From positions 1 to 60,197 of the forward strand of contig WKLE02006678.1 of NCBI GenBank assembly GCA_014885115.2: DNA of 60,197 nt. The letters run 5' to 3'. Each line of letters opens with the position of its first letter. Position 1 is the first letter of the stretch. This DNA comes from Asterionellopsis glacialis. Taxonomy: Eukaryota > Bacillariophyta > Plagiogrammaphyceae > Rhaphoneidales > Asterionellopsidaceae. Positions 10,369 to 45,204 of the stretch are shown piece after piece. Made by a program: the position numbers and the translations under genes. Below the pieces are notes generated by a model. The model was not told the DNA's origin and did not search any database. It worked only from the letters and a program-made list of their open reading frames with translations.

Positions 10369-13300
10369 TTAATCGCTTAGCATGAGGCCTTTCTGCAATT
10401 CTTCAACGATTCTCTCTTGATCGAGTCCAATGTTTGCTTTTTGCAAAAGTTCATGTATAGTCTTGCAGCGTTGGCATGCTTCAACTGTTTTTACAAGTTG
10501 CGATACACTATCTTCGATTTTTTCATCCGCCATTTCTACAACAAAACCTGCTGATAGCTGATCCAAAATAGCATACAGTGTAATCATGGGTCGAAGGGCA
10601 CTTGCGTATTCATCGATTTGAGGGAGACCACGCTTTCCAAGAATCGAAGGTGGATTTCGTTTGGTTGGCGATGATCCCGTTCCACTCACAGAATTTTCAG
10701 GAGCATCATTTCCATCCTCCACCATATCCCACTCCGAAAAAGAACTCGATCGTACTCGAGCCTTTGCACCACCCCGGGGTGTCATGCAACCGCTATCTTC
10801 AACACCAAGTGCATGCCGACGACCAGCGCAGATAATTAGTGCACATAAAAATTTCTCTTTTTGTAGCACCCACCTCCTTTGTGGTGAAGGAGACGACGAA
10901 GATGCCGGATTTCCAGAATCTGCGTTGCTATCATCCTTCTCATTATGAAATAGGATGCAGCACAACGCTGCCATAGGAGCAGCATCTGAGAGACCACGAA
11001 GCATGGATGCTGCAGCAGAAGATCCTGCGCGGTCAAAATCCTCAGCCTCAAGGATTTCGTAGGCAGCAACAAGACCGCCACTGAGAGAGCGAGCATGTTT
11101 GGCAGTTTCCGGAGAGTCGTGTTCAGCATCTCTAGCGAACATGTCAGCCATAAACATCTCATGGAAGAGTAGCATGGCATTGGACGACAATGAACCTCCT
11201 GCACAGTCAGTATTGAGTGCTTCGCCATAAGCCATACGAAGTAAGAGCAATCGCATGTCATGAAGTACAGACCATAACATGGACTTTGGCCTCGCACCCA
11301 GCATATTAGAGATTATTGTCTGGTAGTCTGTCAACGCGATTTCAACTGCCATCAGGGGAACTTTGGAGCTGCGTGACGATACTAGTGGCATGATAGCATT
11401 GCAAGCTACTCTGCTATTCCGAAGACTGGCTCCTTCCCATTCACTTTTCGGGGCCTTCGGGTGGTTCCGATCAGCTGTTCGTGCCGTAGCGTGACAGCTA
11501 CAATGGATAGCATTTCCAGCGGTCACGGTGGTCACAAAATGGCTGGGTCTTCGGCTTTGAGCGATAGATGCCAACGATGCTGCCGCATATGATGAATTTC
11601 GTAGAGCATTCGCAGCCTCCTTTGCAAATGAAAAGTATTCCTCATCCAGGTCCGTTCCTAGAAGAGAGTCGGGAAGATTTGATGGCAATGAAAGGAGCAT
11701 TCGAGTACCATCCACTTGAGTTCGACCGCCACAGTGGTTATGTGGAATCGAAACCTTTTTGATGTAGGCGTAGAGTCCAAGGAGTTCGGTCGGTTGAAGT
11801 GTCCTTCCTTCTTGACAAACGCTGCATGTTAGGCCAGTTTCGTCTTCCATTGCTTCCATTTCTGCCATCCATGACGGCTTCTCAGACGTCGATTGAGCCT
11901 CACCTTGCTGTTTCTCGTTACGCTTTGCCTGGTCAGTTTCAATTGACCGTGAGCTTGCAGAGGCATTTGTTGCAGCAGCAGCAGCAGCACTACTTTGAGC
12001 TCCAAAGAGTCCAAAAACTGGTGCCAACATGGATGCAGCCACATCACGGACACCCCCAGACGAAGCAACAGCTGTATCAGATGAGGCGGATGTATCCGTC
12101 CGCGTTTGAGTCTCTTCAAGCTTTCTGGCTCCAGCAAGGGTACCGAAGGCACTCATACTCACAAGAGCTTTACTACGCCGTTCTTCTGCAATTTCTTTCT
12201 TTCGAGCTCGTGTTTTTCTACGTATCGTACCGATTTGCTTTGCAACAGCTGCATTGTCCTCCTTCAGTTCATCTAACAAAGTTTCTGCCAAAATTCCAAT
12301 TCCATTCAGATTGATCTTGAAGGTAGAATTATCTGATGTAGATTCAATCCAGTGGCATGCAGTGAGAAATTGTATCGGACAGCCATTCTTACTCTTATCA
12401 CCATCAGAGGAATCAGATCCACCGACATTGGCAAGCATGGATTGTGTCGGACCATGTCCCATGACTAAGCCGGTGAGCATGCGGTAAGCAGTTCGAACTC
12501 CCGAACGTGCAAAATATACGCGCCAAGCATCTGCCAACTCTTGATGTTTCGTACTATTCTTTGACTTTTCAAGAGCCTGATCTCTTGACCAAAGGGCAGG
12601 AGACCATGGCGGAGGTTGAGAAGGAATGTGCTTCAATGCAAACATGGCAATCCGGTCAACAAAGCCACAATTGATTAGTTCCATACGAAGAGTGTTGCAA
12701 ACCTCACATGGCGGCAAGTTGATAGCAGCTTGAACAAATGTGTCCATTAGAACCGAAGAACCACTAGGGCTTGACGACGACGATGATTCATCGGAATCTT
12801 CTCCATCCTTTAAATCGTCAACAATGATATGTTTATGAATATCAAGTGCAAGTTCTCTTGATAGAGTAACTTGTCCATACGTTAAGTAGGGCAGTAGTTT
12901 GGCAATTACCTTTCGTAGTGGTGGGCTGAGGAATGTTGTTCGAAGAGACGACAATAAAAGTGGAAGAGTTCCAGATTCCTGCTCTGCGTCCGATTCAAAA
13001 CTTTCCTGCGAAGCAAATGTGCGAGCTGATTTAGTCATGGTACCATCTGAGTCTGACGAAATGTCTGATGCAAGTGCTTCAATAAGTTCCTTGAGAACAT
13101 TGGCAGTTGGGTTGGTACTATTTTCCGATCCACTTGATTTTGTGCCGCCGCTCGTTTCTCCATTATTTTCTTCCAATGAATTCAATACATCCAACAAAAG
13201 TCTCAAAAGTACTGTTGGTGCTCGAGCTTCCAATAGCTTCTTACGGTTGTGAGCAAGGTTTGCACAATGTCGTAGCAAGATGAGTCCCGAACATGGGGGA

Positions 13301-16300
13301 CTTGTAAGGAAGTTCACTTGCGATGGGTTCCGTAGTGTCAACGATGAAGATGATATCTCGTTACCTGCGGCAGCTGCAGCTTTCTTTTTGAATCGAAGAG
13401 AAACATTGTCACGTCGTATACGACGTAAGGTATCTAGAATGTTGGACTCAATCGAACGGAGCAAGACAAAGATACCGCGTCCTTCTGTTATGAATCTTGT
13501 AATACCATATTCTTTCTCCATGAGTTTTTCTCTTGCTTCAGCAGATTGCATTTCAGATGGTGCCTCTGGATCTGCCAAACTCCCTTCATCGACATGATCT
13601 TCTGTTGCCTCTCCATCTACACCAGCTAACCGATAGGTAACCACCATTGGCGGGAGTGCCGTAACAGGTGTATCAGATGTGATATTGCGACTTGCTGCGC
13701 TAGACCCACTACCGCCACCTCCAGAACTAAATACCATGGATAAACCAGATCCAGATGCAAACAAGGAATGCCCTGATTGTCCTGATAAGATGGATGATGC
13801 GAATGAACTTGTTGAATGTTCAACTAAATGATTCTTCCATAAGACTTGTTGGACGACACGTAACTTGAGATTCATATCTAAAATTTTGTTTGCCACAAGT
13901 AATTCTAATAGTTCTGCACTGTCTGACATTTGTAAATCATTCGCAATATATTGACGGAGATCCCGAACAGTGGGTTCACTCGTAGATGAATCTCCACCCC
14001 CACCACTCCCTCCACCAGATGTACTAGCACTAGCTGCTGCATTCGATGACGACGATGATGCATTGTTTAAAAGTGTTAAAGGAATTGGATTCCGTGACAG
14101 AGACCCACGGAAGAATTCTTCTTGTGTGGGTGCACGTTTCATAAAGACTTTGAGGTTCAATGGTTTCTTGGGTGGCTTGACAACATTGCATATCGATTTG
14201 AGTAAGGATTGTTCTGCAGAATGACTCATTGGTGGTAACAAGGAACAGGATGAGTGCTGCTGCTGATTATTATTATGGTGATCTTGTTGTTGTACATTGG
14301 CTTGGACTGTACCAGTATTATTGCTACCCCCGCCATAACTTGAAGAAGAACTATGAATATGAGGATATTGTGCTGCCAAAACTTGCATTCCTGCACAAAT
14401 ATATGCTTGTTTACGATCATTTTCTGTTGGCAGGGAAGGACAGACAGGAGTTGTTGATGATATTGTTGTAGCAGTTCCAGATTGTGTTGCTGCTGTTCCT
14501 GTGGACGACGATCTTTGTCTTGAAGATGAGACTTCATTGTTGTGAATATCTAACATGTCAACACCCGCTACTTCATCAATTACAATATCATGTTCATCTT
14601 CTTCCTCGTCCTCGTCCTCTTCAATATCTAAGTCAAAATGAAAGTCACGGGAGAACAAGAAAAATGAGTTTACCCTTGTACGCAAAAATGATGTATACAT
14701 ATTTAAAAAAGTCTTACCTTCATCCTCTTCATCCCCCTCCTCACATTCAACTACTTCTTCCTCTTCCATAGGTTCTTCTGTAGCTTCATCATCTACTTCC
14801 TCTTCTTCTATCTCTTCATCCTCATCTTCTATATCTTCATGATGTTGCCCTTCTGCTTCCTCCTCATCAATCTCTTCATTGTCCTCATCTTCATCTTCTT
14901 CCTCATCATCATCATGCTCTTCATCCTCATCGGCATCAGTAGCCATATCAAATACATTGACACCACCTTCTTCTTCTTCTTCGCCATCATTGTCCTCCTC
15001 ATCTTCATCATCGTCTTCATCGTCATCGTCGTCATCATGATGAAATTGAAGACGATGGTGATGTGCATCATCAAGATTTGTACTACCACCGTGTTCTTCC
15101 ATGGCCTCCATGGCAGCTGATACAGCTCGTGCCATGGCAGCTGCAGCAGATGTAGGTTGTCCACCACCCGCACCAGCACCACTACTACTAGGATCACTAC
15201 CACCTAATACTTCACCACCAGGAAATAAAAATGAGGATACCATACCACTAGTTGTTCTTGGTTTTTTACGTCGTCGACGACGATTACTACTTATAGCAGC
15301 ACCTCCTGCTCCTTGACTTGCTTGATTTCTCCTTTTCCGTTTCGTTGTAGTTTGGTTATTATTATTCGTACTACTTTGTCCTTGTCGCTTTTTAGCATTT
15401 TGTCTATTGGAAGATGAAAGAGGTGATGACGATGATGATTGCTTTTTCTTTCGTTTCATCGAATTGTTACTACCACTCTTATTGTACTTTTCCTGTGGTA
15501 TAGATGCCGTTGACACTGTAGCTTGTGCTGTAGGATCTACTAATTTCGATAACATGGCAAGACATGAATCCATACCACGAATTTTAGCTGCTAATGGATG
15601 ACTATCCTTCAAGGCTTCATAGACGTAGACAAGACATGCCAAGGGTGATAATCCAATTTCCTTGGTAGTTGCAGTGGTGGCTGTGGGAGATACCATTCCA
15701 TTCTCGTCCTCCTCCTCTTGATGCATCCCGTCCTCCTGTACTGATTGCTGTTGCGGTTGTTGTTGCATAGAAGGAGATGGATTTAAATATACTGAAGGTA
15801 TTTGAGATGACCATAGCAATCCATGTACACGTCGAAGAAGTACAAGTCGTTTTGATACTTCTGCATTATGACGACGTTTGTCATCCTCCTTTGGTTGTGA
15901 AGATGATACAGATGCATTGGAAGACGAACGACTCCTTTTTCGATTTATGGTTGTGGTTGTGGTTGAACTAACAGTCGTACCTGTACTAGATGAACTAGGA
16001 TTCTCTGCTGTAGTCGTAGTATTACCCTTGGTTGATTCTTCATTCTTTTTCTTTTTAGTGCAAGACACTGATTTGGCAGTATTATTGCTGGAATGATACG
16101 GCATGGATGCAAATAGCACAAGATGATAACATAAATCCACTAGAAGAACCAATCGTTTTTGAAGTGATAATTGTTCTTCCAAGGATGGTTCTTCTTGTTG
16201 TTCTACTGTTCCGTCCATGCCAGACCAAAATGGTAACAATGATGACGACGACGACGATGATGTTGCTGTTCCTACATGACTCATAAGAGGTTGATCATTG

Positions 16301-16971
16301 ACAGTAGCATTCGTAGCAGTGATTTTGTCTTGGTTGTAACAGGGGAACAATTGTATGACCAATCCTAAAATATGTTTGGTGGTCCATCGTAATCCACCAT
16401 TGGCACAAAAGGATTGTAAATCAGTTGTATGTTGAACTAAAAAATGAGATAACAAACCAACTAATTGGATCGATGATTCTCCTCCTCCTCCTCCTTCACT
16501 AGACCTACTCCCACCACCAAAGACATGGGATTGCACCAAGGTCATAATGACATCCCGCAATACACTTCGTTGATTCAATGGTGTACCATGTAATAAAATT
16601 CTACAGGAGGCTTGTCGTACTAATAAACTGGAGGATACCAAGGATCGGAATATCCAATGTTCCCATGATGCAACTGAAGAAGAAGGAAAGGGTGACAAGG
16701 AATTCAGGGTTCGATTATTCGTTTCCTCCTTTTTACTTTTACGTTTGATGACACGATTTGATTCAGTCATGGTTGTTCTTGTTGTCTGTGATGCTTCTAA
16801 TTGTTTTTGTTGTTTACATTTTTTTTGTCGTTGCAAGTGCGCCGATATCCAACGACTAATTTGTAATCCTGCTTTATACCGACGCAAGGCATGTTTGGCA
16901 ATTGTAGAAGGTGCACCAGGACGACGATACAAACCTTCTAACAATGGAAGAGACACAGCCGCATCATTCAT
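10369..16971 (-). CDS. UBR4 (C-terminal half): UBR4/BIG-type E3 ubiquitin ligase, C-terminal (hemi-RING) part as a separate gene
   Basis: From the ATG at 16971-16969 the protein is about 2170 aa after removal of a 90-bp in-frame intron (14717-14628). The frame is open further up to 17136, but with no ATG. The order of conserved blocks follows the C-terminal third of animal UBR4 and plant BIG: HWIFRSLVSSSLLVRQASC (near residue 105), then Ser-rich, basic and Asp/Glu-rich low complexity to about 775. Next come a block with VRDLRQYIANDL and ELLVANKILDMNL, then LPYLTYGQVTL. The hemi-RING region starts near 1680 (LTCSVCQEG, GLYAYIKKV, HCSCH, SEWEGASLRNS, ACNAIMP) and is followed by helical sequence (DMRLLLLRMAYGEALN). 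Role: ubiquitin transfer in N-degron and protein-quality control. The substrate-binding half is encoded separately at 29612-45204. Flanking genes are unrelated. Confidence 0.85.
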   Translation of the reverse strand: MNDAAVSLPLLEGLYRRPGAPSTIAKHALRRYKAGLQISRWISAHLQRQKKCKQQKQLEASQTTRTTMTESNRVIKRKSKKEETNNRTLNSLSPFPSSSVASWEHWIFRSLVSSSLLVRQASCRILLHGTPLNQRSVLRDVIMTLVQSHVFGGGSRSSEGGGGGESSIQLVGLLSHFLVQHTTDLQSFCANGGLRWTTKHILGLVIQLFPCYNQDKITATNATVNDQPLMSHVGTATSSSSSSSLLPFWSGMDGTVEQQEEPSLEEQLSLQKRLVLLVDLCYHLVLFASMPYHSSNNTAKSVSCTKKKKNEESTKGNTTTTAENPSSSSTGTTVSSTTTTTINRKRSRSSSNASVSSSQPKEDDKRRHNAEVSKRLVLLRRVHGLLWSSQIPSVYLNPSPSMQQQPQQQSVQEDGMHQEEEDENGMVSPTATTATTKEIGLSPLACLVYVYEALKDSHPLAAKIRGMDSCLAMLSKLVDPTAQATVSTASIPQEKYNKSGSNNSMKRKKKQSSSSSPLSSSNRQNAKKRQGQSSTNNNNQTTTKRKRRNQASQGAGGAAISSNRRRRRKKPRTTSGMVSSFLFPGGEVLGGSDPSSSGAGAGGGQPTSAAAAMARAVSAAMEAMEEHGGSTNLDDAHHHRLQFHHDDDDDDEDDDEDEEDNDGEEEEEGGVNVFDMATDADEDEEHDDDEEEDEDEDNEEIDEEEAEGQHHEDIEDEDEEIEEEEVDDEATEEPMEEEEVVECEEGDEEDEGKTFLNMYTSFLRTRVNSFFLFSRDFHFDLDIEEDEDEEEDEHDIVIDEVAGVDMLDIHNNEVSSSRQRSSSTGTAATQSGTATTISSTTPVCPSLPTENDRKQAYICAGMQVLAAQYPHIHSSSSSYGGGSNNTGTVQANVQQQDHHNNNQQQHSSCSLLPPMSHSAEQSLLKSICNVVKPPKKPLNLKVFMKRAPTQEEFFRGSLSRNPIPLTLLNNASSSSSNAAASASTSGGGSGGGGDSSTSEPTVRDLRQYIANDLQMSDSAELLELLVANKILDMNLKLRVVQQVLWKNHLVEHSTSSFASSILSGQSGHSLFASGSGLSMVFSSGGGGSGSSAASRNITSDTPVTALPPMVVTYRLAGVDGEATEDHVDEGSLADPEAPSEMQSAEAREKLMEKEYGITRFITEGRGIFVLLRSIESNILDTLRRIRRDNVSLRFKKKAAAAAGNEISSSSLTLRNPSQVNFLTSPPCSGLILLRHCANLAHNRKKLLEARAPTVLLRLLLDVLNSLEENNGETSGGTKSSGSENSTNPTANVLKELIEALASDISSDSDGTMTKSARTFASQESFESDAEQESGTLPLLLSSLRTTFLSPPLRKVIAKLLPYLTYGQVTLSRELALDIHKHIIVDDLKDGEDSDESSSSSSPSGSSVLMDTFVQAAINLPPCEVCNTLRMELINCGFVDRIAMFALKHIPSQPPPWSPALWSRDQALEKSKNSTKHQELADAWRVYFARSGVRTAYRMLTGLVMGHGPTQSMLANVGGSDSSDGDKSKNGCPIQFLTACHWIESTSDNSTFKINLNGIGILAETLLDELKEDNAAVAKQIGTIRRKTRARKKEIAEERRSKALVSMSAFGTLAGARKLEETQTRTDTSASSDTAVASSGGVRDVAASMLAPVFGLFGAQSSAAAAAATNASASSRSIETDQAKRNEKQQGEAQSTSEKPSWMAEMEAMEDETGLTCSVCQEGRTLQPTELLGLYAYIKKVSIPHNHCGGRTQVDGTRMLLSLPSNLPDSLLGTDLDEEYFSFAKEAANALRNSSYAAASLASIAQSRRPSHFVTTVTAGNAIHCSCHATARTADRNHPKAPKSEWEGASLRNSRVACNAIMPLVSSRSSKVPLMAVEIALTDYQTIISNMLGARPKSMLWSVLHDMRLLLLRMAYGEALNTDCAGGSLSSNAMLLFHEMFMADMFARDAEHDSPETAKHARSLSGGLVAAYEILEAEDFDRAGSSAAASMLRGLSDAAPMAALCCILFHNEKDDSNADSGNPASSSSPSPQRRWVLQKEKFLCALIICAGRRHALGVEDSGCMTPRGGAKARVRSSSFSEWDMVEDGNDAPENSVSGTGSSPTKRNPPSILGKRGLPQIDEYASALRPMITLYAILDQLSAGFVVEMADEKIEDSVSQLVKTVEACQRCKTIHELLQKANIGLDQERIVEELQKGLMLSD
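14628..14717 (-). other. Probable 90-bp intron that keeps the reading frame
   Basis: On the minus strand the segment begins GTAAGACTTTTT and ends TTTTGACTTAG. It is a multiple of three, has no in-frame stop, and encodes 30 hydrophobic/aromatic residues in the middle of an otherwise pure Asp/Glu tract. Removing it joins ..EEDE to DIEEDED.. without a break. Retention would give a 2200-aa form, so RNA evidence is needed to know which form is used. Confidence 0.75.
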
Positions 16972-17872
16972 TGTCTTTGTTTTCTTTCTTTCGTTTTTCT
17001 CGTTTCTTATAGCCCTTTCTATTCTATGAAATTTGGATTTATTTGACTTGACACACGCAGCAATGACGGGATAGCAATGTTCTATAAGGACACGGAGAGG
17101 ACAGTATCGTGAACGAGACTTCTCAAAAAAGTCCACGGACTAGAAATTAGCACAGCAAGACTGAATGTGAAAGATAAGATCTATAGAAAGCAAAGAGTTG
17201 TATAGAATCAGAAACAGAGTGTCTATCGAGAATTATGATTTGTGGTGTTGTTTTCCGAGAACGCCTTTCACAATGACGATGGGTTGTAACACAGCAAAGC
17301 CTTCACGGATGGAATGAAAATGGAAACGGGGCTGATTGTTGGTGGTAGTCCCAAGCCAAGGGCGCGGTCCCGTGCCAGCAACTGTAGAATCTCTCCTGGT
17401 TTTGCTAGGTCTACTAGAGAGTCTAGTCTCTCTAGTAGCGATAGTCACGAGATTTTGTTTTTTGATTTTGTTCTGATGTCCGTCTTCCGTGTCGCGCGTC
17501 TTTGCTTTTTTCTTCTCTTGTGTTTCCAAGTTTTTCAAGTTTCCTCGTTTTCTGGATACTCACGCATGCACGCGCAGTGCAATAACTACATGGCGTCAGT
17601 ACTTCACTCTGCTCGCTTTCGCGCTTTAGAGTTCCGACCGAATTCTGATTGGTCAGAAGCTTCAGCGCGACTGGAGTTCTGACATATCGTCTGTCATTCA
17701 TCATTCACAAAACACAGACGACGGGGAACAGGCGTTTTTTCAGGCTTGATGATCGATTGGAGGGAGATAGATCGATGGGTGAGATGATGTCAGTCGTCAG
17801 ATCTGTTCCCGCAAATCTTTTTAGGGGTTCTTGTTGTCGTGTCTCGTGTCATCAGTCTTGCCATCCCATCAC
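16972..17872. promoter_or_regulatory. Divergent intergenic region with an 11-bp perfect inverted repeat
   Basis: The region lies between the UBR4 C-half (-) and the cupin gene (+). The arms CTACTAGAGAG (17411-17421) and CTCTCTAGTAG (17428-17438) are perfect inverse complements around a 6-nt spacer, a hairpin or dyad binding site. The first 165 bp (16972-17136) are an open extension of the UBR4 frame without ATG. Short frames on either strand resemble nothing known. Confidence 0.45.
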
Positions 17873-18766: not shown

Positions 18767-19028
18767 TTTGTCACACATTTTTGAAAAACAAACAGGGATT
18801 TCTTCTCTCACATGCGAGAAAGTGATAACTGGACTTTTTTAAAAAAGTTTACACCATGCTCTATAGTTATGGTCGACGTCAGAACACTTTGTCATTTCAA
18901 TGCAAGATATACCGTACAACAGACAACTACTATCTTGTCTCAAAGTTCATAACAGTATTAATCACATCTAATCTTCTATACTAAAGAACACGTTCCATGA
19001 ATCAAAACGAATCTTTCATGCTTTTACA

Positions 19029-29611: not shown

Positions 29612-32600
29612 ATGCCTCCCAAGCGTAGGCGAGGTGGTGAGAGTAAAGAGTAAGTAGATGAAATACTACCTTCTTCTTTTTCTGCTTCCATGCTACACTT
29701 TTTTTCCCTCCGTGGAATCTGCTGTTTTGAAGCTGTTGAAACGTGTCTATGATTGGCAAAGAACGGTATAGAGTTCCAGCCTCTGGGAGCGATGCAATTT
29801 GATATGCAAAGTATCTATTAAATGGCACGAATTTCGAACCTCACTGTTTGTCCTTCCGCATGTTTTTATCGTTTATGATAACAACCCAAACAAAAACAGT
29901 GATACTACCATCAGTAGCGGTAAAGGAAAAGCCTCATCTGCGTCATCGCCAAAACCCTCCATGAAAATTTTGCTGGAACAAATACAATTACTTTCTACTG
30001 ACAAACTTCGATGTTCTGAAGCACTGCAAGCTCTTATAGACGGGAAATGTACTTTGGAGGAACAACCAACGAAAAAGGAACACCCCGATTCATACTGGTT
30101 CATACTGGCTACGCATGGAATTCACCGTTTAACAAATTACTTGTCCACGACTACAACTACTTCTTTGCAACACAAAAATGAAACAGCCGTTGTTTTAGCA
30201 CTTCTCTGTCATGACCTGACGGTAGCTCTTTTTGCAGATCAAACAAAGTTAGAACGATGTGGACATGCTGCGACTACAGCATCAGCTACTGGAACACGGA
30301 CGGTCCGTGGTATTGTTGGTAGAGCTATAGTAGGTATTACAATCGGTTGTACGACAGCACTTCATCATTTGATCACAACAGCTTCCCACGATGATAAGAA
30401 AGCTTCATCTTTTGCCTTTGCCACGGCCCATACCAAACATAGAAATGATAGTGACGGTACATCACTTTTACAACGATCCATCTGGTCGGTTTTGCATGCC
30501 TTGGAAATGGTTGTACATATGTCGTCATCGTCTTCGTCGTCATCTCTATCCTCAAAAAATAATGTGCATGATATTCTTGCAAACAGTGCTAGCATAGGAT
30601 CATCAGATATTCGCTGGCATATGGCACAAATGCGTTTGTACCAAGATGCACCCTTTCGACGTGAGAAGGGTGATACACACGAATTGGATGTTATGGCAGC
30701 CTGTCGTTCCGTGACCAAAGTCGTACATTTTGATCATCCTGCTGAAATCACCTGCCTAAATACTCTCATGATTCATGGAGTTTCTAACGCAACAGCTGGG
30801 GTCAGTCCAAATACAGCAACAAAGAAGTCACCTAGTAAAACACCATCAAAGCGTTTGCCAAGAAGCCGTGGTGCTGCTGCTGTGTCGAAAGAAGATTCTG
30901 TGGAAGTATCATCACCAATATCCCCATCGTCGTCGGCATCTCCTGTATTTGAAGCATTTCAACAGTTGAAGGAATACTTTCCGTCGTCTACTTCTATAAT
31001 GGTGGAAGGAAGGGTATCAATTCGACGATGGGCATCAATGACATTTGTTTGGTTGTGCCAAGGACAACAGAAAGGTCTTGAAATGGCGAAGACTTTGTTG
31101 GACTATCATGAATATTGGGAAGAAATCTTGGATTGCTCACCAAAGAAAAGAGAAAAAGGTGTGTCCAAATCGCCCAACAAAAAGATAAGTCCACGTGGTT
31201 CGAAAGCAAAGCAATTGCGCAAGACAGCTGCAGCATCCACCAGTGCAAATAGTGACATCGCAGTAGGTGTCCCAGGCAATGTAGCACTTATTACCATGGC
31301 TGCACGACTGATTGACATCTCAAGTGATAGTGGGAATGCTTGTGGTGTCCGAGCTCCTACGGGTGGTATGGATACATACGCTGAATCTGTGCTGTCGTCC
31401 GAAACTTCGTCCTCGTCACCCGTGAGCAAACGAACAGCTCGGTCACCTGGTGGCAACAGCAATAGTTCCACTCCAAGCTCTAACAACAACACGCGACCTG
31501 ATATTCGACACTTGGCCACTGTTGTTCTCTACAGATTGTTGCACACTCATGCTGCTTGTATAGAACATAATACAAACAATATTCTCACAAACAATGCTGG
31601 TGGTAGCCCTGTTGAGTACCTACTCTTGAACGAAGATCCTCGTCCAAATACACAACCAATTCGTAATGAAGATGCTTCTAACGTAGGGCGCTCTTTGGTT
31701 AGGGTTACATCGTCAGTTTCATCGCAAGATGTTGGCGAAGATGATGCTGGCGAAGTTTTCGTAGCACAGTATTATCCTTTTGTTCATAAGAGTGTGGATT
31801 CACTTTGTAGAGCAGCAGCAGCAAGTGTTGGAAATGCTGGACGTGTAGACTCCTCTGAATCTTTACGCAAACTTTTGGGACTTGCAGCTGCCTTTGCACT
31901 CGGCTCGGTATCTACTGTCCCAGAAGAGCAGCGGTTAGAGCAAACTTCAAGACTAAGAGGAGCAAAGGCCTCCTCTACCCCTGCATCCACCATTTGTATG
32001 GTGAAGGTTGACGCAAAATTGTGTGCTTTTGCAGTCAACCAGCTTGCAGAGAGCTTGAGAAATATTTTGAATGAAGATGAAAGTATCGGTGGTACTTTAT
32101 CTGGATTCAGTCGAACCAATAACAAAGATGACGACGGAGATGATGAATATCCGCAGCTTGTAGAAAAATTTAGCCTTGACAAGCCTCTCCCCATCCCTGA
32201 GCTACCAATTGATATTGCTGAAACTACAAGCGTCCCGAAATCCACACGGAGAAAGCGCACAAAGTCGGACATCAAAAATACCTCATTGGATTCATTCTGT
32301 ACATTTGGAGGAGTGTTTGACGTCCCAGCAAAATCATCCCCGGAAGAGAATGCAGAAGAAAGTAAAGCAAGTCAAATTTCAGATGAGATGTTGCTTTCAC
32401 TATTCCTTCGCGCAATGCCTATAAGCCCGACTTCATTGACAGATAAGAATCCTGGCGAACTATTGCTGTCCAAATTATTTTCCGTTGTACGCTGTTGTTA
32501 TGTCATGCAACAGGAGGAAAGTGTAAGCTCTCCAACACCGAAGAGTTCTTCACCTCTCGCCAGACCGGGATCTAGGAAACGAGGAGCTACTGTCAGTGGC

Positions 32601-35600
32601 GGGAAAAAGAAACGCCAAAAGACAAAAAAAGGAGAAGAGCGCAAGCAAGAAGAATCCGCATTATCATCATCGTCTTCATCGTCGAGTAAACGGCCAATGA
32701 ATTCTGTACGAGCTGGACTCGCCACTGATGTTATGAATGCTCTCCGTATGTGTTTGATCCATCCACCTGTACATGCTGCATCAAGTTCATCTATACATCG
32801 ACTTCGTCTGTCACTTCGTAAAGCGCTTTGTACAACTCACATTTGCGATTTTGTAAAGCTTGGTAACATGCTGAATAACATTTTTATTAAGACGCGCCAA
32901 TCGAAGGAAGCCGCTCCTGTAACTGTGGCATCTTCATTCTTTGCCAATGCAAGTAACAGTGACTTTACTCATTTTGAAAAATGCCTATGGTAAGTTGTCG
33001 CTTTTAATTTACATGGATACCGATTGAATGATTCCTCGTGCTCACCACCATGATGCTTTTTTCACTACTTTTCACGACTATTGCAGGACTGCCCACATCA
33101 ATTTATGCCTAACACTAGGACGAGGCCAGACGTCATATGATCCACGAAAGCAAACTTCAGTATCAGAACCCATTATGGGTGATGCTGAAAGGCGTTTGGC
33201 TGTGTTTCGTTCCATAGTTGAGGCTGAGAAAAGAGGTGATAGAGCAGAGATGAGTTGGCCTTTATCGCTTCCAAATGTACATCATGCTTTGGTAGCTTCG
33301 AATCTAACTGGTGAACCATTCCCATCAAATGATGAGGAAGCTGCACCTGAACGATTTGTTTGTCACTCTTACATTGCCAGTATTGAGTTTGCATTGCAAA
33401 ATCTTGCAATCATTGGGAAAGGCAAACGTGACCCATCGTCCTATCAGGAGACGAATAAAGCCTCGTTTGATTCCGATGACGAAAACAGTTCAGATGACAT
33501 TCCCCTATCGCTTCGAGACTCCAGGTTATTTGTGCTTGCAATGAGCCGTCTACCACTATCTGAACAACTGATTTGTCTACCGAAGCTCATTGGTATTGCT
33601 GCAGATGGCTTTTCAGCCGTAAAGTCAAATGAAGACGTCTACAGCTTAGTCGTATCGAACAGCGATGTGTCTTTTTTCCTTGCCCGGCTTATCACAGTTT
33701 GTACCACTATCATGAACATTATTTCGGTCGGCCCTAGCCTTCGCGAGGCCCTTTTCCTGCAAGTCGGGCCTACGCAATATCAATTGCCATCAAGAAAAAA
33801 CATTGACATGGAATCCGTGGAAGGGGATAATAGTTGGTACCGCCGAGAGAGATGCTTTATGGGCCTTTTTTCTGATTGGGAATCACCAACAATCCCTGAC
33901 GTAAGCATGGCCCCTGACAGTCTAAACGGCTTTCCTGAAGCTGTCACAGCTCAGATTACTTTTCTTCTCGAGACTGCCTTAGGTGTTGGATTTTCCTCGG
34001 CAAAAAATGACAAATGCCACCTTTTGTATGCATCATGGAATGCGCTTGGAAAGCGAAGTTCGTGGGAAAAACCAGACTTAAGAACCATCACTACCTCTGC
34101 TGAGCTCTCCTTTGGGAAAGAAACTTTGCCTCGTTTACTTGCTGAGCTCCGGGATGACATCTGCCAGGTTTACAGGGCAATATATGGAAGTTCACGAGCA
34201 GTGACCGACTCATTGCTCTCGAGAATGTTACAATCCCAGGAAATGAAGCAGAGAGCTAACAGACCGAAGGTGGAGCATTCGCTGAGAGCTATGTTGTCCA
34301 AGGCCGAATCTATTGTGGACGCCCTTCTAGAGGAAAGTGCATCTGACCCATCACCATCGGATATCCCATTGGAAGTGTTTGCCCTCATGGAAATGCTCAC
34401 GACCTACATTGCTTTCATTGTTTCAGAGCACACTAAATGCGATGAAGATTTCTTTTCGCCGAAACCGCGACAGTCGAAGTCGAAGAAGCGAGGAGGTATT
34501 TCAACAGATTCATTGGAGGATGATGGTGATCTGCTTGCCAGAGCTAGAGCCGAGCTAAATTCAGATGACTCTGATGACTCCGATGGCGAGTACAATGAAT
34601 TCTTAGACAGTGTAGATGACGATGCAAGAATAGACGCAATATCAAGGTTGCATGAGGCATGTGGTGTTTATGGTGCTGCACCGTGTCACCCTGATTGGTT
34701 GGACAATGGCGCCCGCCTCCGTGACGGGATTTCACCGGAAGATGCGGCCAAGGTTGCAGAAACTGCGTTGAATTGCGTCACGAAGTTGGGCGAACTAGCT
34801 TTCAAGAGGCATATGCAGTCTCTACACCGTACGCTGGCTTTGTATGGAAAAACAGACGAGGTAGATGACCAGCGGGTCACTTTAGCATTGCAACTCTTCG
34901 TTGCTGTGCGAGAGGATGAAGGAAATGATGTATCTAGTGTATTGCACGACGAGTCGGACGCTGTACTTGACGATTGGATGCAAAAGATTTCTTCTCTCTG
35001 CCAAATTACTGGAGAAGGACTAGATCTCTTATCTGAAAATGACTGTAATAATTTGGTATCGGCGAGAGAAGCGTGGTGCCCCAATTCAGCTCAAAAGATT
35101 CTAGGGAAACTGCAAGATAGAAGTATTACGATTGAGGGTTGGGGAGCAACACGAGCTGAGCTCCGAGCAGCTGGAGAATGGGAATTGCTAGTCTCGGAAA
35201 CACTGCTTGGTTCTTGTCTAGAATTTGATAATTCAAAAGTTTCCATGGGCGATAGCAAAAAGCAAACAAGATCTACCCGCCAGGAAGAAGGGCATGGTGT
35301 GTTTGTTCACGCTCAAAGGTGGCGTCTGGTTTACGAAAGTGCCATTAGTAATCTAATGCCATGCAGTGCCTTACTTCGATTTGCGCTAAGTGAAGGCTCG
35401 GGTCGTAATGTGCATCCATTCAACAAAAGAGAACCTATAGTGCATAAGCGGTTATCATTCAATGAACCTTTGCCTGTAGATGGGCACAGAATGTCAGAAG
35501 AAACAAAATCACGAGTATCCAGCTGCCTTTCTTTCTTATCGTTGGCTGGTTCAGCATATTTGCCAAATAGCATAGTAAATCGGTCTTGCCATGCTGTTGC

Positions 35601-38600
35601 TACTAATCTTCTTGTTGACTCGAGGTCTTTTGTTGACCTTGAAGGTATGCAGATTATCGTGACAGCTTTTTCGGGCCTGATGACCCTTATGGAGCTAAAT
35701 TCCAGTCGACTTCTAGACGCTGAAGAGGTTGTAGCTTGTCAAAGCGCGACTGATAAGCTTCTTGTTTCTATTGAGAATGAGGCAAACGCAGCTGACGATG
35801 GGGCTTTGCTCAAGAAGAGACTTGAGCACGGCCCCTTTTCTTGTGGGCCGACAAGTTTGAAGTTTGCAAAATTACTCGCCTTGCTTGGTTTTGAAGCGGC
35901 ATTAGCGATTGATTCAATCGTGCCCATGGATTTTAAATCAGCTGTGGCAGGATTTCAATTAAAGGTTCTGCGACCAGAATGGAAATGTGAGTCCTCAGAA
36001 TATAAGGCAGTATCATCACTAATGTCGCTGCTCTTCTTTGCTGATATGGAGGTCTCTGAAGAGTCAAGGTGCCGTCTTGCTCGCATGATTGCTGGAGCAA
36101 CTGAGCTCGAGTTTGGTCTTATCAGTCTGTCAGGCTCGTTGTCCAAGTATTCAATATTTTTACCTTCAATCACCTACTGCTGTAATTCCTTTGACCAGGA
36201 TAAGCTGAAAATGATCATCCGTGATGACATTATCGTGTCCTCGACTTCGTCAATAATGAAATTGGAAGCTAGCAAGAACCTCTGTGCAATCTTTTCACTC
36301 TTGCTAACCCCGTCAGATGGTAGTGGCCGCATTTCTGTTTTACGTGAATTTGAAAAAGGAGCCCAATTTTTTCGGGCTCTTTTTGAATGCGATGAAATAT
36401 ATGCTTCTAAACACGTAGTTGACCTACTATTTCTTTTGGGCAGTCGGTTGGATACCTTGAAAGATATTGGTTCCAATCTCATGAAGACTTGTATTGATAA
36501 GAGTTTGGAGGATTCCGAACAAAGTCTCGCAGCACTCGAGCGTTTCTTCCTTTTTGTCCGAGAAATGGATGATACTCTACAAAAAGTGTCAGACTCTCCT
36601 GCTTCCTCTGATTCGTGGTGTGCAATCTTGCCCAAGACTAGTGGAAATAAAGATCCACCTATGATTGATGAGGGATCTAAAGATGCTGCCTGTACTTACG
36701 TTCTCAGAAACGGGCAATTCCATGAGCAACATTGGTACAACTGCTATTCCTGTGGGCTCCTGTGGGATAAAGGTTGCTGCTCTCTTTGTGCGCGAGTTTG
36801 CCATAAAGGACACGAAGTAGCTTATTCCCGGTTTAGCTCATTCTTCTGCGACTGCGGAGCCGAGTCTGCCAATGCTGAGGAGCAAAATCGCTCACCGTGT
36901 AAATGCCTCACTCCCGTTTCAAGTCGAGATCTTGCCACAACTTATAGTGACGGCAATCCAGAACATTTCTACCGAAACCTTCAGACTGGCAAGCCGTCCG
37001 GGGAAATTGCAGATGAAGCGACGTCGCTATCTTCAATTGATCATAAAATAACACAGATCGGTGCCCTTGCTTTTCCAACCGCTGCGACGACGTCGATTGA
37101 TAGCATCAAGATAGAGGCAAAGAGAGCATCTTGGATTGCGTCATTATTCAAGCTTATCCATCGACATTTCGAAGCCTGGGGTGGCACAGATTTCATGGCA
37201 TTAGTTTTGCGCCAAAAATACACTGACCCAAAGTCAAATGGAATCGAAGCATATTCTCTTATGAGAAATGCATTGCGTTCCTCACTGGGTACTCGGAAAG
37301 GAAAACCCCTCCGACTTGAGCTACTTTTAGAAAAAGCCATGGTGCCCGCTAGGGCAGCAAGAGCAAACTCCTTCAAATTGCAGCTGTCCCCTGATGCCAC
37401 CACAGATCGCCTCAAACGTGCAATGCTGGCGAAAAATGAGATACAGAGAGTAGCACTGGTGTCTGACAGTCGAGGGCGCCTGATTGTGGCTGAGCCAGGT
37501 TCGTTGCTGTTTTGCAGCGGCATCCCTGCTGTGAATACAAGATACGTACCAAATGCTTCCGAGAAACCTCTCTCGCGTGCACAAATGTGTCTCTTGGGCT
37601 CATCTACGCTTAAATTCAATATTGTTGGTATGCAATTATGTCAAAGCAACGAACGGCACCTTGTAGTGTGGGGATCCTCTGAAGCGTGTGTCGCTGTGCT
37701 ATCAACACAATGCGATAGAGTGGAAAAGACAATTGAGCTTGTATTTGACTTAGAACCTCATGAGTGTGAAACAGACTATCTTCTGAAGTGTCAATGGCTT
37801 CCTGGATCTGAAACGATCGTCGCAGTCGCATGTGGGCCATTTGTCAAGCTTTTCGATGTCAAACGTACGGAAAAAGAAGGCCGATCGCATGAATCGATAT
37901 GTTACAGTCTTGCCTACGAGGCGATGTTGCGTGATATTGCCTTTGTTTCAAGTAGCAATGCCGATTGCATGCCTGTTGACAGAAATCGCCAACTTCATAG
38001 AAGGGGTACCAAGCACAATCTTGTGCGAATGTACCTTCTTCTTGACTCAGGATGTGTAAATATGATCGATCTGGAACTTAACAATAAGGGCGAACTTAAG
38101 GAAAAAGGAGAAAAATACCTCGAACCTGGAGAAGGCGTGTCGCTTCCCACTTCCGGGGTGCGAGTTTTTGGAACGTCGCCAGGTACCTCAGATTCAACAT
38201 CAAGAAGCTTCGGTGAAGCGTCTAGCTTAACTTACTTGTCTCAAAGTCGCATTCTATTATACAAGTGTGTATCTTCGTGTGTTTTAGCACTACTGCTAGA
38301 TAGCGAAGGTAAAGTTTGCGGAAGTTTTGAAATGCTGCCTCACTCTGTATCCTCAGAATTACTGGGAACAGGATCTGATGGCTACGACATTAAGGGGCCA
38401 TATACACATTGGACTGAGCTAGGCGTGTCTGGAGATTCATCTTCGCCGTTTTTCCGAGCTGCTTGCGTCGGAAAGTCGTCAAAGACTAACCAACCAAAAT
38501 TACTTTGTGTTGAATACAATGAAAGTTCAGTCCGAGTCAAAGAGTTGATCTGGGCATCAGGGGCGTCAATGGGACTTGGACTTAGTTTAAGTTCCTCCTT

Positions 38601-41600
38601 TGATGGTATGGCTGCATTTTCGGTACCTGTTGTTGTCAATAGAGGAAGTGGTGAGGAAAGCCAACTTTACCAAGAACGTGCATACTTGGTAGCAGTGACA
38701 TCCAAAGGCTGTATGTTGGTTTATGGGGAAGCACTATCCTCTACAAATAAATCTCAGGGCAAAGAGGCTCGCTCTGCATCTCTCCGCAGACCAGTATTTA
38801 GTGATTCGGCCATATCTAGAGCTAGCGAGGATGACGGAAAAGACGACAGGTCTAGAGAGAAGCCTTCTTTTCCTCTCACAATTTTTGAGACTTTGGTAAA
38901 TGCAAGTGATTTTGAAAATCTCACTTTTGGCGGAGATGGAGTCGGATCGTAAGTCTTGTGATTCACAATGTCCTTTCATTTTTTGCTTTTTCTCATTGAA
39001 ATTAATTGCATTCTCTTGTCGCTAAAGGGATTCTAGTCGGAGAAACAAGCCATCCGGTAGTTCTGTGTTTGTCATGAGTCCTTCCACTGGTGGGTGCACC
39101 ATAACGGTGCATTTAGGCAGAAGTGAAAAGGGGCAAGATGAAAGCTCTGGTAATAAACGCAAGCAAGAATCTTCGAAAGAAACAGAAAACTCTCGCGATA
39201 AGTTGGTAATTGTTGCTATGCGAGTTCTAGTAGGATCAACTTCAACAGATTTTATACCAAAACAGATATTCATAGAAGGTCGTCCAGTAGATCTCAAACC
39301 CGGAGCAAAGCGTTGGTATGATCTTCCTCTCACGAGAGAGGAAGTCGTCCTTGGTGTTCGAAATGGCTTTGTCTCAATAGCGATTGGTCCCTCTTTCGAT
39401 GAGGGCAATAACCCGCTTATTGACGCTGTAGAGGTATACACACTGAAGAGAGAAGATTTAGGCTGGCTGCCAGAAGCGTTATCGAGCAGACTTTGCTCAG
39501 CTTCGAAAAAATGTATGTCCTTGGGATATGAATCCGGTTTTGAACATAATTTTTTGAGTCGGCAGAATCAGCTGGTATCGAGTATGCAAGCAACTACTCA
39601 CATTTGCCAAACTCTTGGAGTTGGCGAACATGTTGCTGATGCCAGAGCTACGCTACAACAACTCATTCAGGCAACTGCTATAGACACAGCGAAAAAGGGC
39701 AGTATTCGAGAATGCACAATTGGGCTTTTGAAACAGGTAATCGACCCGAGTGCCATTCAAGTCTTTTTAGATGAGGGGACTTTGTTTGGTGTAGCGCGGG
39801 CTCTTGTCAACGCAGATCGTATATTTGAGGAGGATCCTGGAGATTCCGATCTTATGGCTATCGATAAGCCTCAGTCCAAAGAGAACTTGTCCCCCGGATC
39901 AGCAGCCACGTGGGCGCAGATTCGGAAAATCATTGAGGAAGGCCTTGCCTCCGCGACACGTATTGCTCGTGCTCACCCAGAAAATTACGCTCGGTCTAAT
40001 GAGAAAATAGTTGCGGAAGGAGTTTCATCGGCTTCAATTTCGGTGGTAGTGAACACATTGTTGCAGAAGGCACTGGAGTGCTCATTAGATTGTACCAGTC
40101 TTGTATGTGGTGTAGTAGATTTGGCACTTCTTGAGCTTGCGATTACTAGTAGCTCAGATGATATCGATAAGCAGCATTTTGCTGGATTTGATGCAATCTC
40201 ACAACTACTTCGTTCGTCGAATTCAGGAGTTGTCGAAGATTGTTGTTCAGCAATATCATCTTTCGTAAAGTCTGCTGCGAGCCCGCAGGATAGCGAGGAT
40301 CAGTGCCAGCCTCCATCAACAGCAACCGATAAGAACGACCAGACCGCCCCAATCGCATATCAATGTGACTCGTGTTCTCTTTTCCCGATAACTGACTCGA
40401 GGTATACGCGTAAGTTGGGTTCTTCCCTCATGTCTTTTTTTCAAGCAAACAATTATTAAATTTAGTTCTTTTTTCCTTTTTTAGTTCTCGAGGGTGATCA
40501 TGACATCGACTTATGCAAGCAATGTTATCGCGTCGGACGAGGATATGCGGAGTTGCAAGATTATGATCCAAATGTAGACGTAATGATTAGAGGGAAGACT
40601 CTTCGTTTAGATGGGAATACACAGCTGAGTTGCCAACAAATTAAACAAATGCAACCTGTTCCAATTGCAAATGCAATTGTTGAACAAGTTGAGCAAGCAC
40701 GGAGAGCCGTGCAAACATCGGATAGTCAAGCTCCATCTAATCTACCACAGGCTATGGCCGAGGATAGCGAAGCTGAAACGCTACAGAAAGCCCTCTGGAT
40801 GAGCTTAGGCGAAAACGCCGATGAAATTGAAAATAGACAGCAAGACGTCCCCGATGAGCGAGCGAAGCACGAGGACTTCATCAGTTCGCTCTTCTGCGAT
40901 ATTCTCAGTGCCGTCCTGACTTCAGATGGAACGAATTCTAATATGACCCATCCCGTCCCACTCTTCAAAGTTCTTTTAGGCGTAGTCTTTAATTCAGAGC
41001 GCGAAGAGCAGCAGATATCTCGGGCGAAGCAACTCGCAGAACATTTAACGCGCCAGATTTCTCATTATGCGCAGTCTTACGAAGGGAGTAAGAAGGAGAC
41101 TTCGTCGCGTGAAAGTGGCGTTTACATGCACTTGTGTCTAAAATCTCTTACCAACCTACTACTTCGCAATGAAGATATTATGGGAGAGACTCATTCTGAC
41201 AGATCTACAAATGATGTTGCTCGCGGTCCCAACCCTCCCCTTGATAGTGAGGGAAATCAAACAGCGAAAACCAAAGAGAAAACAGACCCAAGATTTGTTT
41301 GTGACGTTCACGGCGTTCCAGCGGTTCGCCGTCGATGCTCTAACGGCGTGCATAAGAATCGAAGATTCTATGTTTGTGGTCTGAAGCGTAATCTACGGTG
41401 TCGTTACTTCAAATGGGCCGACGCTGATGCAAAGACAGTGGAACAAGCGCCGAGAGTGGAAAAATCCCTACCTAAAACAAATTATTGCAAAGAGCTTGAG
41501 CCATATCTTTGGCAACTGTTTATGGAATGTGGTGAGGATAGGATTTCCCCCCTACAATCCCAATTATGCAACATGCTTGAAAAAAATTACCTCGCTTTTG

Positions 41601-44600
41601 AAACGTCCAGTGAGTCTAAGGAATGTCTTCCTTCAGAGGTGAAATCAAGCAATGGTAAGGGTGAGCTTGAGCCATTGGGGCGTGATCAAGGTCTCATTTT
41701 GCAAAGCATGTATGCTTTTGATTCTTCTTTGACCGATCTAAATGATGGTGTTCTCTGTAGCAAGGAGAAACTGGGTAATACGGACGGACAAACATTTCTG
41801 AAAGATAAGCCCAGGAGAAGCGCATCTGCAACAATTGAAGATTGCATCAGCACCACGACGGAGAAATCGTTGATCGAGGCATCTTTAGAACTGCTCTCCT
41901 TCATAGGGTCCAGTTCGCTTCAAAGTGAGAATGAGAGCGAGTCGCTTTCAAGCTGGTATCCTGTGCTTTGTGAAATCATCAGCTCCAGCACGGTAGTGAA
42001 GTTCAGAGTATTAGCAAAGTCAGTGTTGAAACGTCTTTGTGGAGGAAGAAAAGCGTATCATAGTGTTCGTGATCATTATGTATTTGGGTTCCAATTTAGG
42101 AATCTACTTATAAATTCTCGTGGGCCGTTAGCTGCGGCTCTCATTGTCAAAGAACAGGCCAGGCAGTGTGGTAATGATTGGAGAAGAGGACAAGAATTCT
42201 GCTGGGAGAATCTAAGAGCGGGAGATTTATTGGGCACCCAAGAGTTGATAGCAGAAGATGCATTGACAGTCGAATGCAGGGTGAAAATATCTGCCGTTCT
42301 GGATGAACTCATGTCAGTGACAAGAAACCGTGGCGGAAATTGGAGACAATTCTGTGGCCTTTCCAATCTTCCACGCTCTCATCGTAAACCCACGTCGAAA
42401 AATACAGGAACAGAAGAGAACAGTAGAAGTTCGGACGAGCTGCTTGCTTCCTTTGATGTACCACCCATCATATCGTTGATGTGGATCGCGTGCTCTCTTT
42501 CAGGGGCTGATCAAGTAAAGGCATTCGAGCTTATGGATGTTGCTCTAAATGCAAGTGAAATTGCAACACCATCCAACGGTGACGAAGACCAAGACCTGGC
42601 AGACGATAGTGGGGTGGTAAGTTCAGATGAAGGAACAGATATTGAATCTCCAAATAGTAAGGCGCACTTCTTTTCTGTGGGGAAAGTGCTGCCAGTGGAT
42701 TCGCCAGAAGATGCACTACTCGGTGGAAAGCGATCTCTTAATGCGTATCAAGTGAATGCTTTCATAATACAATTTGTACTTCGAGGCCAAACATCTGATT
42801 TGAGAAAGGTGACTAGCGGTGTCGCACGGAGCCTTTGCCAGAAACTTGCTGGTAAGGACTTAAACAATATTTTCATGCGACTTCTCGGTGCCCCGTTCAA
42901 AGAAATTGGCATGCTTGGCCGGGATTGCGTTGAGTTTTTGGATCTTTTACACGCTATTGTGAGAAATTGTGACTTGTCAGAGTCGTTTCAGCTGGCTAAT
43001 GCAGCTCAAATAGTCGTCGGATGTTTCACCAGTCAAATGAGAGTTGCGCAACAGTCAGGCGACGGCGTACTACTAGACACTGTTGAAGAAGGAGAAATAT
43101 CTCAAAAGTTTTTAGACTTCTCTTTCTGTGCACATTGCCATAGAAAGATCTCAGCTGGGCCAAGCTCGAACGCGCCACAAGAACGATCTTCTCAAGGTTC
43201 TAGTGAAAATAATCGAACTAATAGATTTCGGGCGGTCGAACGAAGTCAAAGAGCTGCACCAGAAAGGGAGACTCCTAGTCAGAGGCCGTGGTTGCCAGAT
43301 CAAGTCAGACCATTCGTACGAGGTCCTCTAGATGAAATTGCAGAATCCTCTGTTAGTTCAGAATTTGCTACTTACGTGAAACTCAAATTCCGCCTAGCTG
43401 TTTCGGAGGTTCATCTCATTGTCAATGATCCCCGGGGTCGATTTGTGAAAACTGTAGCTGTTTACTTTACACCTAGACAAGTCAATGATGGCAGTACGCT
43501 GAAGAGTGAGCAGTATGCCTCAATGTGGCAGAGATGTGGGACGCTGACTTTGCCTCGCGGCGGCGCACAGATCACCTGTAATCTTTCAACTCCTGTTATT
43601 GCTGCGAACTTAAAATTCGAGTATCTTGACTTTTATGAAAGGCCGGGAGGATCAAGATCTGCTGATGGTGGTCTCATTTTGCACTGTCCGAGATGCACTA
43701 GAGTCGTTAACCATGCCCATGGTGTGTGTGGCCATTGCGGAGAGGTTGCGTTTCAGTGTAGGAAATGTCGCCACATAAACTATGATCGATTAGGTGAGTC
43801 AGGCGAAAAGCAATCATGCATGTAGCACCACAGATGATTCCTGGACACCAACTGATATTTCTTTCTTATCTCCTTTGTGATTGTTCGGTAGATGCATTTT
43901 TGTGTGTTGAATGTGGATACTGCTCGTCTGGTAGTTTTTCTTATGAGCTTACTGCAGGAATTGCCTCCAATGCAGTTGCAATAGTTGATGAAGATGGTTA
44001 TAGTAGAGCCGTCAAAGTTCTTCGTGTTGCTACTAAACTTCACGAAGATCTGAAAGTTGCTGTGACAGAAACAGGTCGGGCACTTGTAAGCAGAAAACGC
44101 GCTCGGTCGGGAGATGATTTTTCTGCTGTTGATGAGCTATCGTTACACGGTCCCCACTTGAAGCGTGCCTTCCTCGGCAAATTACCTCGGCCTGGAGGAG
44201 GTAGGGGAGATGGCGCTGCTGGTGGCAATTCCGCAATTCATAGCTTCCGAGGCTCTGCAATTGCCTCGATTGCAAGACGAGGTGAACCAAGTGGTCGAAC
44301 ACCTACCAGCAAGGCTAGGTCTCTACTGCGATTGGCAAGACAAATGCGTCGTGATCCCGGAGGCGCTAACCGAGCTCAAGGTAGAGATTTTCTTGTTAGG
44401 CAGGCTTTTCTTGGTTCGGGTCGCCGTGATTGGTCTAGCGATAATATTGACGACGCTAACGGCGAAATGTTGGGTATTTTGGACTCATCTGGTGGCATGG
44501 AAATGTTGACAGTTGATTCATCTGACCCTTTAAGCCGCCTTGTAGCAAGTATTCAGGCGCGCGTCCGGGACAGTTCAGGGCGTGATGGAGAAGGTAGTGA

Positions 44601-45204
44601 CGACGATGAAGAGGGAGGTGACAGTGGTGGTGGTGGTGGTGGAGGTCGGGGTCAAGCTGCTGAAAAGTCCGACTCATCCCCTAAGGCAGTCTTTGAAGAG
44701 TGCGATCGTTTGTACCAATTAATGAGGGAAGCTGAGAGGGAATGTTTCGAGCTACAAAGAAGAATCAATGCATGGAAACATCTCGAACATGATACGCTTG
44801 CAGCCGTCGGGTCTTTGAGACCTACTGGTTCTCCTTTTTTACCTTCACAATGTTCGGTATGTGGTGGTTCCGCTGTACTGCACCTTCTCCTCCTTGCAAT
44901 GGAAATTGTCCGGGTCGGTATGAAGGAGGCTGATGCTGCTATCACGAAGGACTTTGTCAGAGCTCTTTTCGTCGAACCTGTCGATATGGAGAGCGAACTA
45001 CTTGATCTGAAGCGGCTGGCATTGGCCACACTGGCGACAAAGTCAGAGCGTGGAAGTAAGCTAGTTTTAGCAGAGCTTCGAGCGAGGTTGCATGCAACCC
45101 GAGATGTAGCGAGTGCCGAAATATTGGGCAAAATCTTGCAGATAGATTTTGACAATGTTGACGAGTATGTCAATCTAGCCATGGAAACAATGGAACACAT
45201 TTAA
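29612..45204 (+). CDS. UBR4 (N-terminal half): UBR4/BIG-type ubiquitin ligase, N-terminal and middle part with UBR box, six exons
   Basis: Predicted exons: 29612-29649, 29900-32989, 33087-38948, 39028-40409, 40485-43793, 43892-45204; all borders are GT..AG and the joined frame is 4997 aa. Exon 1 is the least certain. Order of parts: long helical-repeat scaffold; UBR-box zinc finger at about 2251-2316 (EQHWYNCYSCG, CSLCARVCHKGHE, FFCDCGA), the site that reads N-degrons; WD-like region at about 2490-2930 (LVVWGSS, VKLFDV); ZZ finger at about 3441-3481 (YQCDSCSLFP, DLCKQCY), split by intron 4; GRF finger at about 3727-3772 (NRRFYVCG, CRYFKWAD); zinc ribbon at about 4522-4577 (CPRCTR, GVCGHCGE, CRKCRHINYD, FLCVECGYC), split by intron 5; and a C-terminal helical block with QCSVCGG. 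It stops before the hemi-RING, which is encoded at 10369-16971. Confidence 0.9.

Follow-up and report, generated by a model that had tools for sequence, protein, structure and literature searches.

The window analysed here is contig WKLE02006678.1 of the diatom Asterionellopsis glacialis (60,197 nucleotides, numbered along the forward strand), the whole of one contig of a draft assembly (GCA_014885115.2; 40.3 Mb in 1,503 contigs). Two genes on opposite strands of the window code for the two parts of UBR4, the ubiquitin ligase called BIG in plants. UBR4 is described as a conserved giant quality-control ligase, and the structures from human, worm and plant all show one continuous polypeptide. 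The plus-strand gene codes for the N-terminal two thirds of UBR4/BIG (the N-half), and the minus-strand gene codes for BIG from about residue 3790 to the end (the C-half).

Structure of the two genes

The N-half gene is located at 29612..45204 on the plus strand and covers BIG residues up to about 3788. Its six exons (29612-29649, 29900-32989, 33087-38948, 39028-40409, 40485-43793 and 43892-45204) were joined under the guidance of similarity, and at each junction the GT-AG pair fitting the database relatives P0001, P0003 and P0005 best was taken. All introns are GT-AG introns of 75-250 bases, with the donor GTAAGT in four of five cases and GTGAGT in the other. The spliced frame encodes 4,997 residues with one stop and none internal, and its residues 1-4994 are aligned to the relative P0001 with 34.6% identity. 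A first-pass annotation, made from the letters alone, had placed at these coordinates a gene with domains in UBR4 order followed by a stop, and the coordinates, the profile matches and the spliced frame agree with that description.

The UBR box is located at 36691..36864 (PF02207, 30.7 bits against a cut-off of 25.2; residues 2245-2302, position computed), and its region matches BIG 1558-1662 and UBR4 from 1658. The beta-propeller (WD-like) region at 37324..38082, about residues 2456-2708, matches BIG 1750-1914 and UBR4 up to 2029. The ZZ zinc finger at 40358..40537 is split by the intron 40410-40484. This internal ZZ is a BIG-type, plant-like trait, and it exceeds the Pfam cut-off only once spliced (PF00569, 23.7 bits against 21.4). 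A GRF zinc ribbon follows at 41297..41425 (PF06839, 27 bits against 25.9); the ribbon is annotated in P0001 and P0002, is below the cut-off in P0003, and is unlisted for the plant and animal UBR4 matches. The beta-sandwich 2 with its zinc ribbons (43373..43789) matches BIG 3329-3479 (E 2.1e-20) and UBR4 3562-3694. The last armadillo helices, at 44863..45201, correspond to positions 324-435 of 436 in the AlphaFold2 model. The predicted local distance difference test (pLDDT) score over these helices is 62-90 in blocks of ten, and the protein stops at the helix end. UBR box and propeller come first, an armadillo block follows, and beta-sandwich 2 and its zinc ribbons come last, as in BIG and UBR4. 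A scan of the N-half with the catalytic-region profile PF13764 (E3_UbLigase_R4) gave no match.

The C-half gene is located at 10369..16971 on the minus strand. The open frame extends from 17139 to 10369, its first ATG is at 16971, and an in-frame stop lies upstream of this ATG. The frame encodes 2,200 residues, or 2,170 residues without an in-frame 90-nucleotide GT...AG intron that is probably present at 14717-14628, inside an acidic stretch, as judged by inspection. PF13764 matches the C-half protein with 275.8 bits (cut-off 23); in the genome scan, the profile gave three matches within 11122..13977 (142, 81.2 and 47 bits). Against Arabidopsis BIG, six pieces within residues 4121-4843 were aligned, some of them weak, with an overall E of 1.8e-26; against the human UBR4 catalytic module, E is 2.7e-22. 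The hemiRING zinc site (11494..11826) is formed by C1716, C1719, H1823 and C1826, assigned by counting C2HC columns with the ligands as defined in the corresponding part of PMC10873205. All four are conserved in 90 of the 92 aligned rows, and the remaining two rows are gapped there. The expectation that the minus-strand gene reaches the hemiRING is borne out by the PF13764 score and the C2HC ligands. In the UZI region, the best stretch against PF13764 reaches 757 of 809 positions, and the best stretch against PDB 8b5w ends at 267 of 459. The segment 13579..13977 matches BIG 4167-4267 in weak blocks (2.5 and 11 bits) and is named the probable UBL region by position, no domain match having been obtained there.

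The first 480 residues of the C-half (15532..16971) belong to the armadillo scaffold past the break, and about 300 residues of this scaffold are kept by the C-half from the break onward. In the predicted structure, a conserved head at 16777..16971 consists of a helix at residues 8-16 (LPLLEGLYR) and a long helix at residues 20-65, with pLDDT of 91-97 over residues 11-60. Similar heads are seen in many relatives. The ATG at 16971 had been correctly chosen in the first-pass annotation. The proposal that the conserved part opens with WIFRSLVSSS was not correct, because the conserved head (LPLLEGL and the long helix, residues 7-65) precedes it.

According to the structure mapping, the last residue of the N-half is aligned to human UBR4 4000 and BIG 3788, and the start of the C-half is mapped to UBR4 3999-4005, depending on the structure entry, and to BIG 3790. 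In these models the break is between two helices of the armadillo scaffold, and nothing evident is missing. The earlier proposal that the two halves together span the whole family, with nothing obviously lost or repeated, is supported by both the domain matches and the mapping. When profiles of the C-half head and of single chains were compared, leaving out P0012, P0129, P0123 and P0126, in which the pattern did not locate the start, the match was weak, and thus the position of the C-half start is based mainly on the structure mapping.

Arabidopsis BIG (AtUBR4; PDB 9qt9) is similar in domain order, UBR box, beta-sandwich 2, C-terminal catalytic region and the hemiRING ligands of the plant rows. 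The internal ZZ is also common to BIG, as given in PMC7618180, and to the N-half here. The differences are that the 5,141 residues of BIG form an unbroken polypeptide, while in the diatom the break is at about BIG 3788/3790, and that the diatom N-half contains a GRF ribbon. Human UBR4 (SIFI complex; PDB 9nwd, 9qws, 9d9z and 8b5w) is similar in the scaffold around the seam and in the C2HC hemiRING, but is a single chain of 5,183 residues, and its ZZ is supplied by KCMF1 according to a passage of PMC7618180, a protein not recognised here. The UBR4 of C. elegans (PDB 9qx1) is also a single chain, unlike the diatom halves.

The apparent split in other diatoms, and copy number in the assembled genome

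Relatives of each half were searched separately. For the N-half, the UBR-box part was used as the query, proteins of about 2,230-7,100 residues were considered, and the 1,884 best word-sharing candidates were scored. For the C-half, the catalytic part was the query, the lengths were about 1,680-5,355 residues, and the 7,969 best word-sharing candidates were scored. An unbroken diatom UBR4 beyond the candidate sets or length ranges of both searches would be missed.

The N-half search gave 22 matches. Six of these (P0001-P0006) are of the window type, and PF13764 is annotated in none of them; they are unnamed proteins grouped with the window by similarity only. The other 16 matches have 4,083-5,356 residues and all list PF13764, and they are plant proteins wherever the organism is named. 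The terminal sequence block of the window N-half is shared by five of the six relatives. The remaining relative, P0004, is truncated, seemingly where an exon ends, and is thus uninformative on the split. P0001 is the open reading frame of a transcript and is marked complete. A transcript covering both halves would have spoken against two genes, and this one holds the complete N-half frame only. In P0002, ankyrin domains are annotated in addition to UBR and GRF.

The C-half search gave 112 matches, and 91 of them (P0024-P0114) are half-length, with 1,687-2,802 residues and a median of 1,909. A methionine is at the start in 85 of the 91, and some of these may be internal; the other six have none. 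Most of the 91 are unnamed gene calls, and a diatom source is named for 11. The named sources are Seminavis robusta, Conticribra weissflogii, Cyclotella cryptica, Thalassiosira profunda, T. exigua, Nitzschia sp., N. inconspicua, Epithemia clementina, Fistulifera solaris, Minutocellus polymorphus and Pseudo-nitzschia arenysensis; we take the Seminavis, Conticribra, Cyclotella, Thalassiosira, Nitzschia, Epithemia and Fistulifera entries to be from diatoms. A search of other diatoms for a split UBR4 had been suggested, and half-length C-half proteins were found in these 11 named entries. A profile of the N-half end matched none of the 91 C-half relatives (one reached 5.3 bits), and the same profile gave 173.5 bits with the unbroken relative P0115. 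Conversely, the catalytic profile gave no positive score with the six N-half proteins. A heptad of the LPLLEGL type is present within the first 200 residues in 55 of the 91 by a strict pattern and in 59 by a looser one (raw pattern counts). The chain is broken at one seam in the split relatives wherever the end is visible. As the relatives were seen as half-proteins, the evidence for two genes is direct in the Asterionellopsis genome and inferential in the relatives.

A UBA-like domain (PF14555) is listed in 11 of the 91 C-half relatives, including P0052, P0064 and P0068. The named bearers are Cyclotella cryptica and two Thalassiosira. In three relatives that were rescanned, the domain is positioned in the head, ahead of the catalytic part. 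It is possible that this domain is a new ubiquitin-binding module on a detached arm. Two further unnamed proteins, P0119 and P0125, start near beta-sandwich 2, and may be either fragments from exons or further splits; P0125 represents 127 sequences.

A maximum-likelihood tree was calculated with 46 rows, including 33 of the 91 C-half relatives, and rooted at the midpoint. The window groups with the 33 sampled relatives in a single clade with support of 100/100. The window is inside a clade (100/99, with its inner order unresolved) with P0024, P0029 and 15 further rows, which include Seminavis, Nitzschia, Pseudo-nitzschia, Epithemia and Fistulifera; from this position, the source of the window is probably a pennate diatom. 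P0108, P0111 and P0114 branch first within the split clade, and thus the split should be no younger than the diatoms sampled. P0115 and P0116-P0118 adjoin the split clade, and the plants and animals are outside. No other sequences in the tree are closer to the split clade than these four, which are continuous across the split site; the tree program warned of long branches at the join of P0116-P0118. P0115, P0116 and P0118 start partway through the family sequence and are perhaps incomplete. The first match of P0116 and P0118 is at about position 2,700 of the N-half profile, and P0116-P0118 may be truncated models or may be cut elsewhere. Judging from the sequences, the split appears to be old and common to the sampled diatoms, throughout which the split C-half persists. 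This age and the sharing among diatoms had been missed in the first-pass annotation.

In the assembled genome, the profile PF13764 has three matches only (142, 81.2 and 47 bits), all inside the C-half gene, and the C-half protein has no match besides its own locus. The N-half block matches its own locus and one UBR-box-like stretch of 60 residues at C91:10742-10927. Both halves are thus single copy in the search, and there is no spare full-length UBR4 in the assembled genome. A second full-length copy, which had been named as an observation against the split, was accordingly not found in the assembly. The extra stretch sits on an open reading frame with leucine-rich repeats; FBXO11-type proteins also carry a UBR box.

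A possible two-subunit enzyme

UBR4/BIG is encoded here by two genes, with the break placed between armadillo helices by the structure mapping, and we consider it quite probable that both proteins dock at this site as one enzyme. The N-half would be the substrate side, with the N-terminal scaffold, UBR box, propeller, ZZ and beta-sandwich 2. The C-half carries the probable UBL region and ends in the hemiRING, which would bind E2 and extend ubiquitin chains. The halves would dock in trans along the armadillo stack at the seam and would act as an E4.

According to PMC7618180 and PMC12286842, the larger of the dimer interfaces in human UBR4 is made by the C-terminal armadillo region, to which KCMF1 and calmodulin also bind; a hinge close to residue 4301 links this region to the catalytic arm. 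The C-lobe of calmodulin surrounds Trp4105, atop a lid that holds a KCMF1 helix, as described in a passage of PMC12286842. In the alignment, Trp4105 is within YLTEKYVWRWKQF, some 100 residues beyond the seam. If human UBR4 is taken as the model, the seam, at about residue 4000, is inside the C-terminal dimerisation region and about 100 residues before the Trp4105 helix, so that the joint could be clamped by calmodulin together with a KCMF1/DI19-like cofactor. By eye, the long helix 20-65 of the C-half may be the counterpart of the human calmodulin-binding helix around Trp4105, and calmodulin could hold the joint if the two helices are equivalent. In the account of the worm protein in PMC7618180, C. 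elegans UBR4 is without calmodulin, which indicates that the interface can change cofactors.

Several points weigh against this proposal or are weak in it. Foldseek alone gave no significant match, the predicted model of the N-half end is poor, and the linkage of the halves in other diatoms could not be read. Furthermore, KCMF1/DI19 was not recognised in the genome; the zf-Di19 profile gave no match, and the six-frame search misses intron-split fingers, as it also missed the window's own intron-split ZZ. The cofactor part of the clamp is thus unsupported. Three genomic ZZ loci were inspected by eye: one resembles a protein of the p62/NBR1 type, two resemble acetyltransferases of the CBP/p300 type, and none was recognised as KCMF1.

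If the two halves worked separately, the C-half would be a free E3/E4 with its UBL region and hemiRING, and the N-half would be a free degron receptor or scaffold. The unrecognised KCMF1/DI19 fits such a separation, as does the behaviour of the human UBR4 fragments 4360-5183 and 4730-5183, which autoubiquitinate alone in vitro according to a passage of PMC10873205. The UBA-like domain in 11 of the 91 C-half relatives would also be expected if the C-half were acquiring its own recruitment. However, the roughly 300 scaffold residues of the C-half are in the region of the dimer interface in human UBR4, and the end helices of the N-half are kept. We therefore judge separate working of the halves to be unlikely.

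Joining of the halves into one chain by RNA trans-splicing or protein splicing is highly improbable: nothing in its favour was found, the two frames start and stop independently of one another, and the transcript-derived relatives P0001, P0040, P0069 and P0090 hold one half only. An artefact, in which a single UBR4 gene is broken by a mis-join or by the gene model, is just as improbable: an N gap of 280 bases does lie between the halves, and the assembly is a draft of 1,503 contigs, but reorienting either piece cannot join the halves, the gap is far from both broken ends, five independent N-halves end alike, and the 91 half-length C-half relatives are without the N-half end. The mis-join at the N gap was rejected because the split is common to relatives.

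If the halves do assemble into one enzyme, diatoms would be a natural experiment on whether the receptor ring and the catalytic arm need to be one molecule, and the seam would be an evolution-tested cut point for making the 574-kDa protein in pieces. Database entries already name the diatom C-half UBR4 or BIG, and these entries cover only about a third of the enzyme. In open-access full-text literature, with subscription journals mostly outside, neither a split UBR4 nor a diatom UBR4 was among the matches listed.

Origin of the split and neighbouring genes

The ATGs of the two halves are divergent (head-to-head) and 12.6 kb apart, and the genes at 17831-28882 occupy the interval between the C-half and the N-half. 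By post hoc arithmetic, the chance that the starts of two random genes are within 12.6 kb in 40.3 Mb is about 0.06%. The split probably goes back to a single inversion that had one of its ends within the ancestral gene and the other upstream of it, because such an event leaves divergent halves with the formerly upstream genes between them, as observed here.

A fission by another route, namely duplication with complementary loss or transposition, with the present closeness due to chance or to later rearrangement, comes somewhat short of an even chance. Gene order is expected to scramble over the age of diatoms, which counts for such a route, and so do the unread linkage in other diatoms and the break points. 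No long inverted repeat was found in the break-point search, only two weak inverted pairs, neither of them at the break ends. In addition, no relative was found in a search of viral and genome contig collections for the relatives' loci. Against such a route, divergent ATGs 12.6 kb apart are the layout left by one inversion. As the linkage elsewhere is unread and no break-point repeat was found, the inversion is put forward here as a hypothesis. In its fullest form, an inversion before the diatom radiation cut UBR4/BIG, and diatoms have since used a two-subunit E4, in which a substrate ring receives a detachable arm at a calmodulin-binding seam; chain extension would be switchable by calcium or by the supply of the arm, and the head-to-head genes would be the surviving trace. 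We regard this scenario as speculative and rather doubtful.

The sole N run of the window is the assembly gap at 24458-24737 (280 bases), between the two UBR4 genes and far from the broken end of either half. Directly upstream of the N-half, 26903-28882 on the plus strand encodes a heat-shock-factor-type DNA-binding protein (PF00447, 28.9 bits), and a DUF1350 protein is encoded at 22317-24176. On the other side of the C-half, the neighbours at 844-9304 are a papain-type protease, a sirtuin, an aldehyde dehydrogenase in two pieces and a Kre9/KNH protein.

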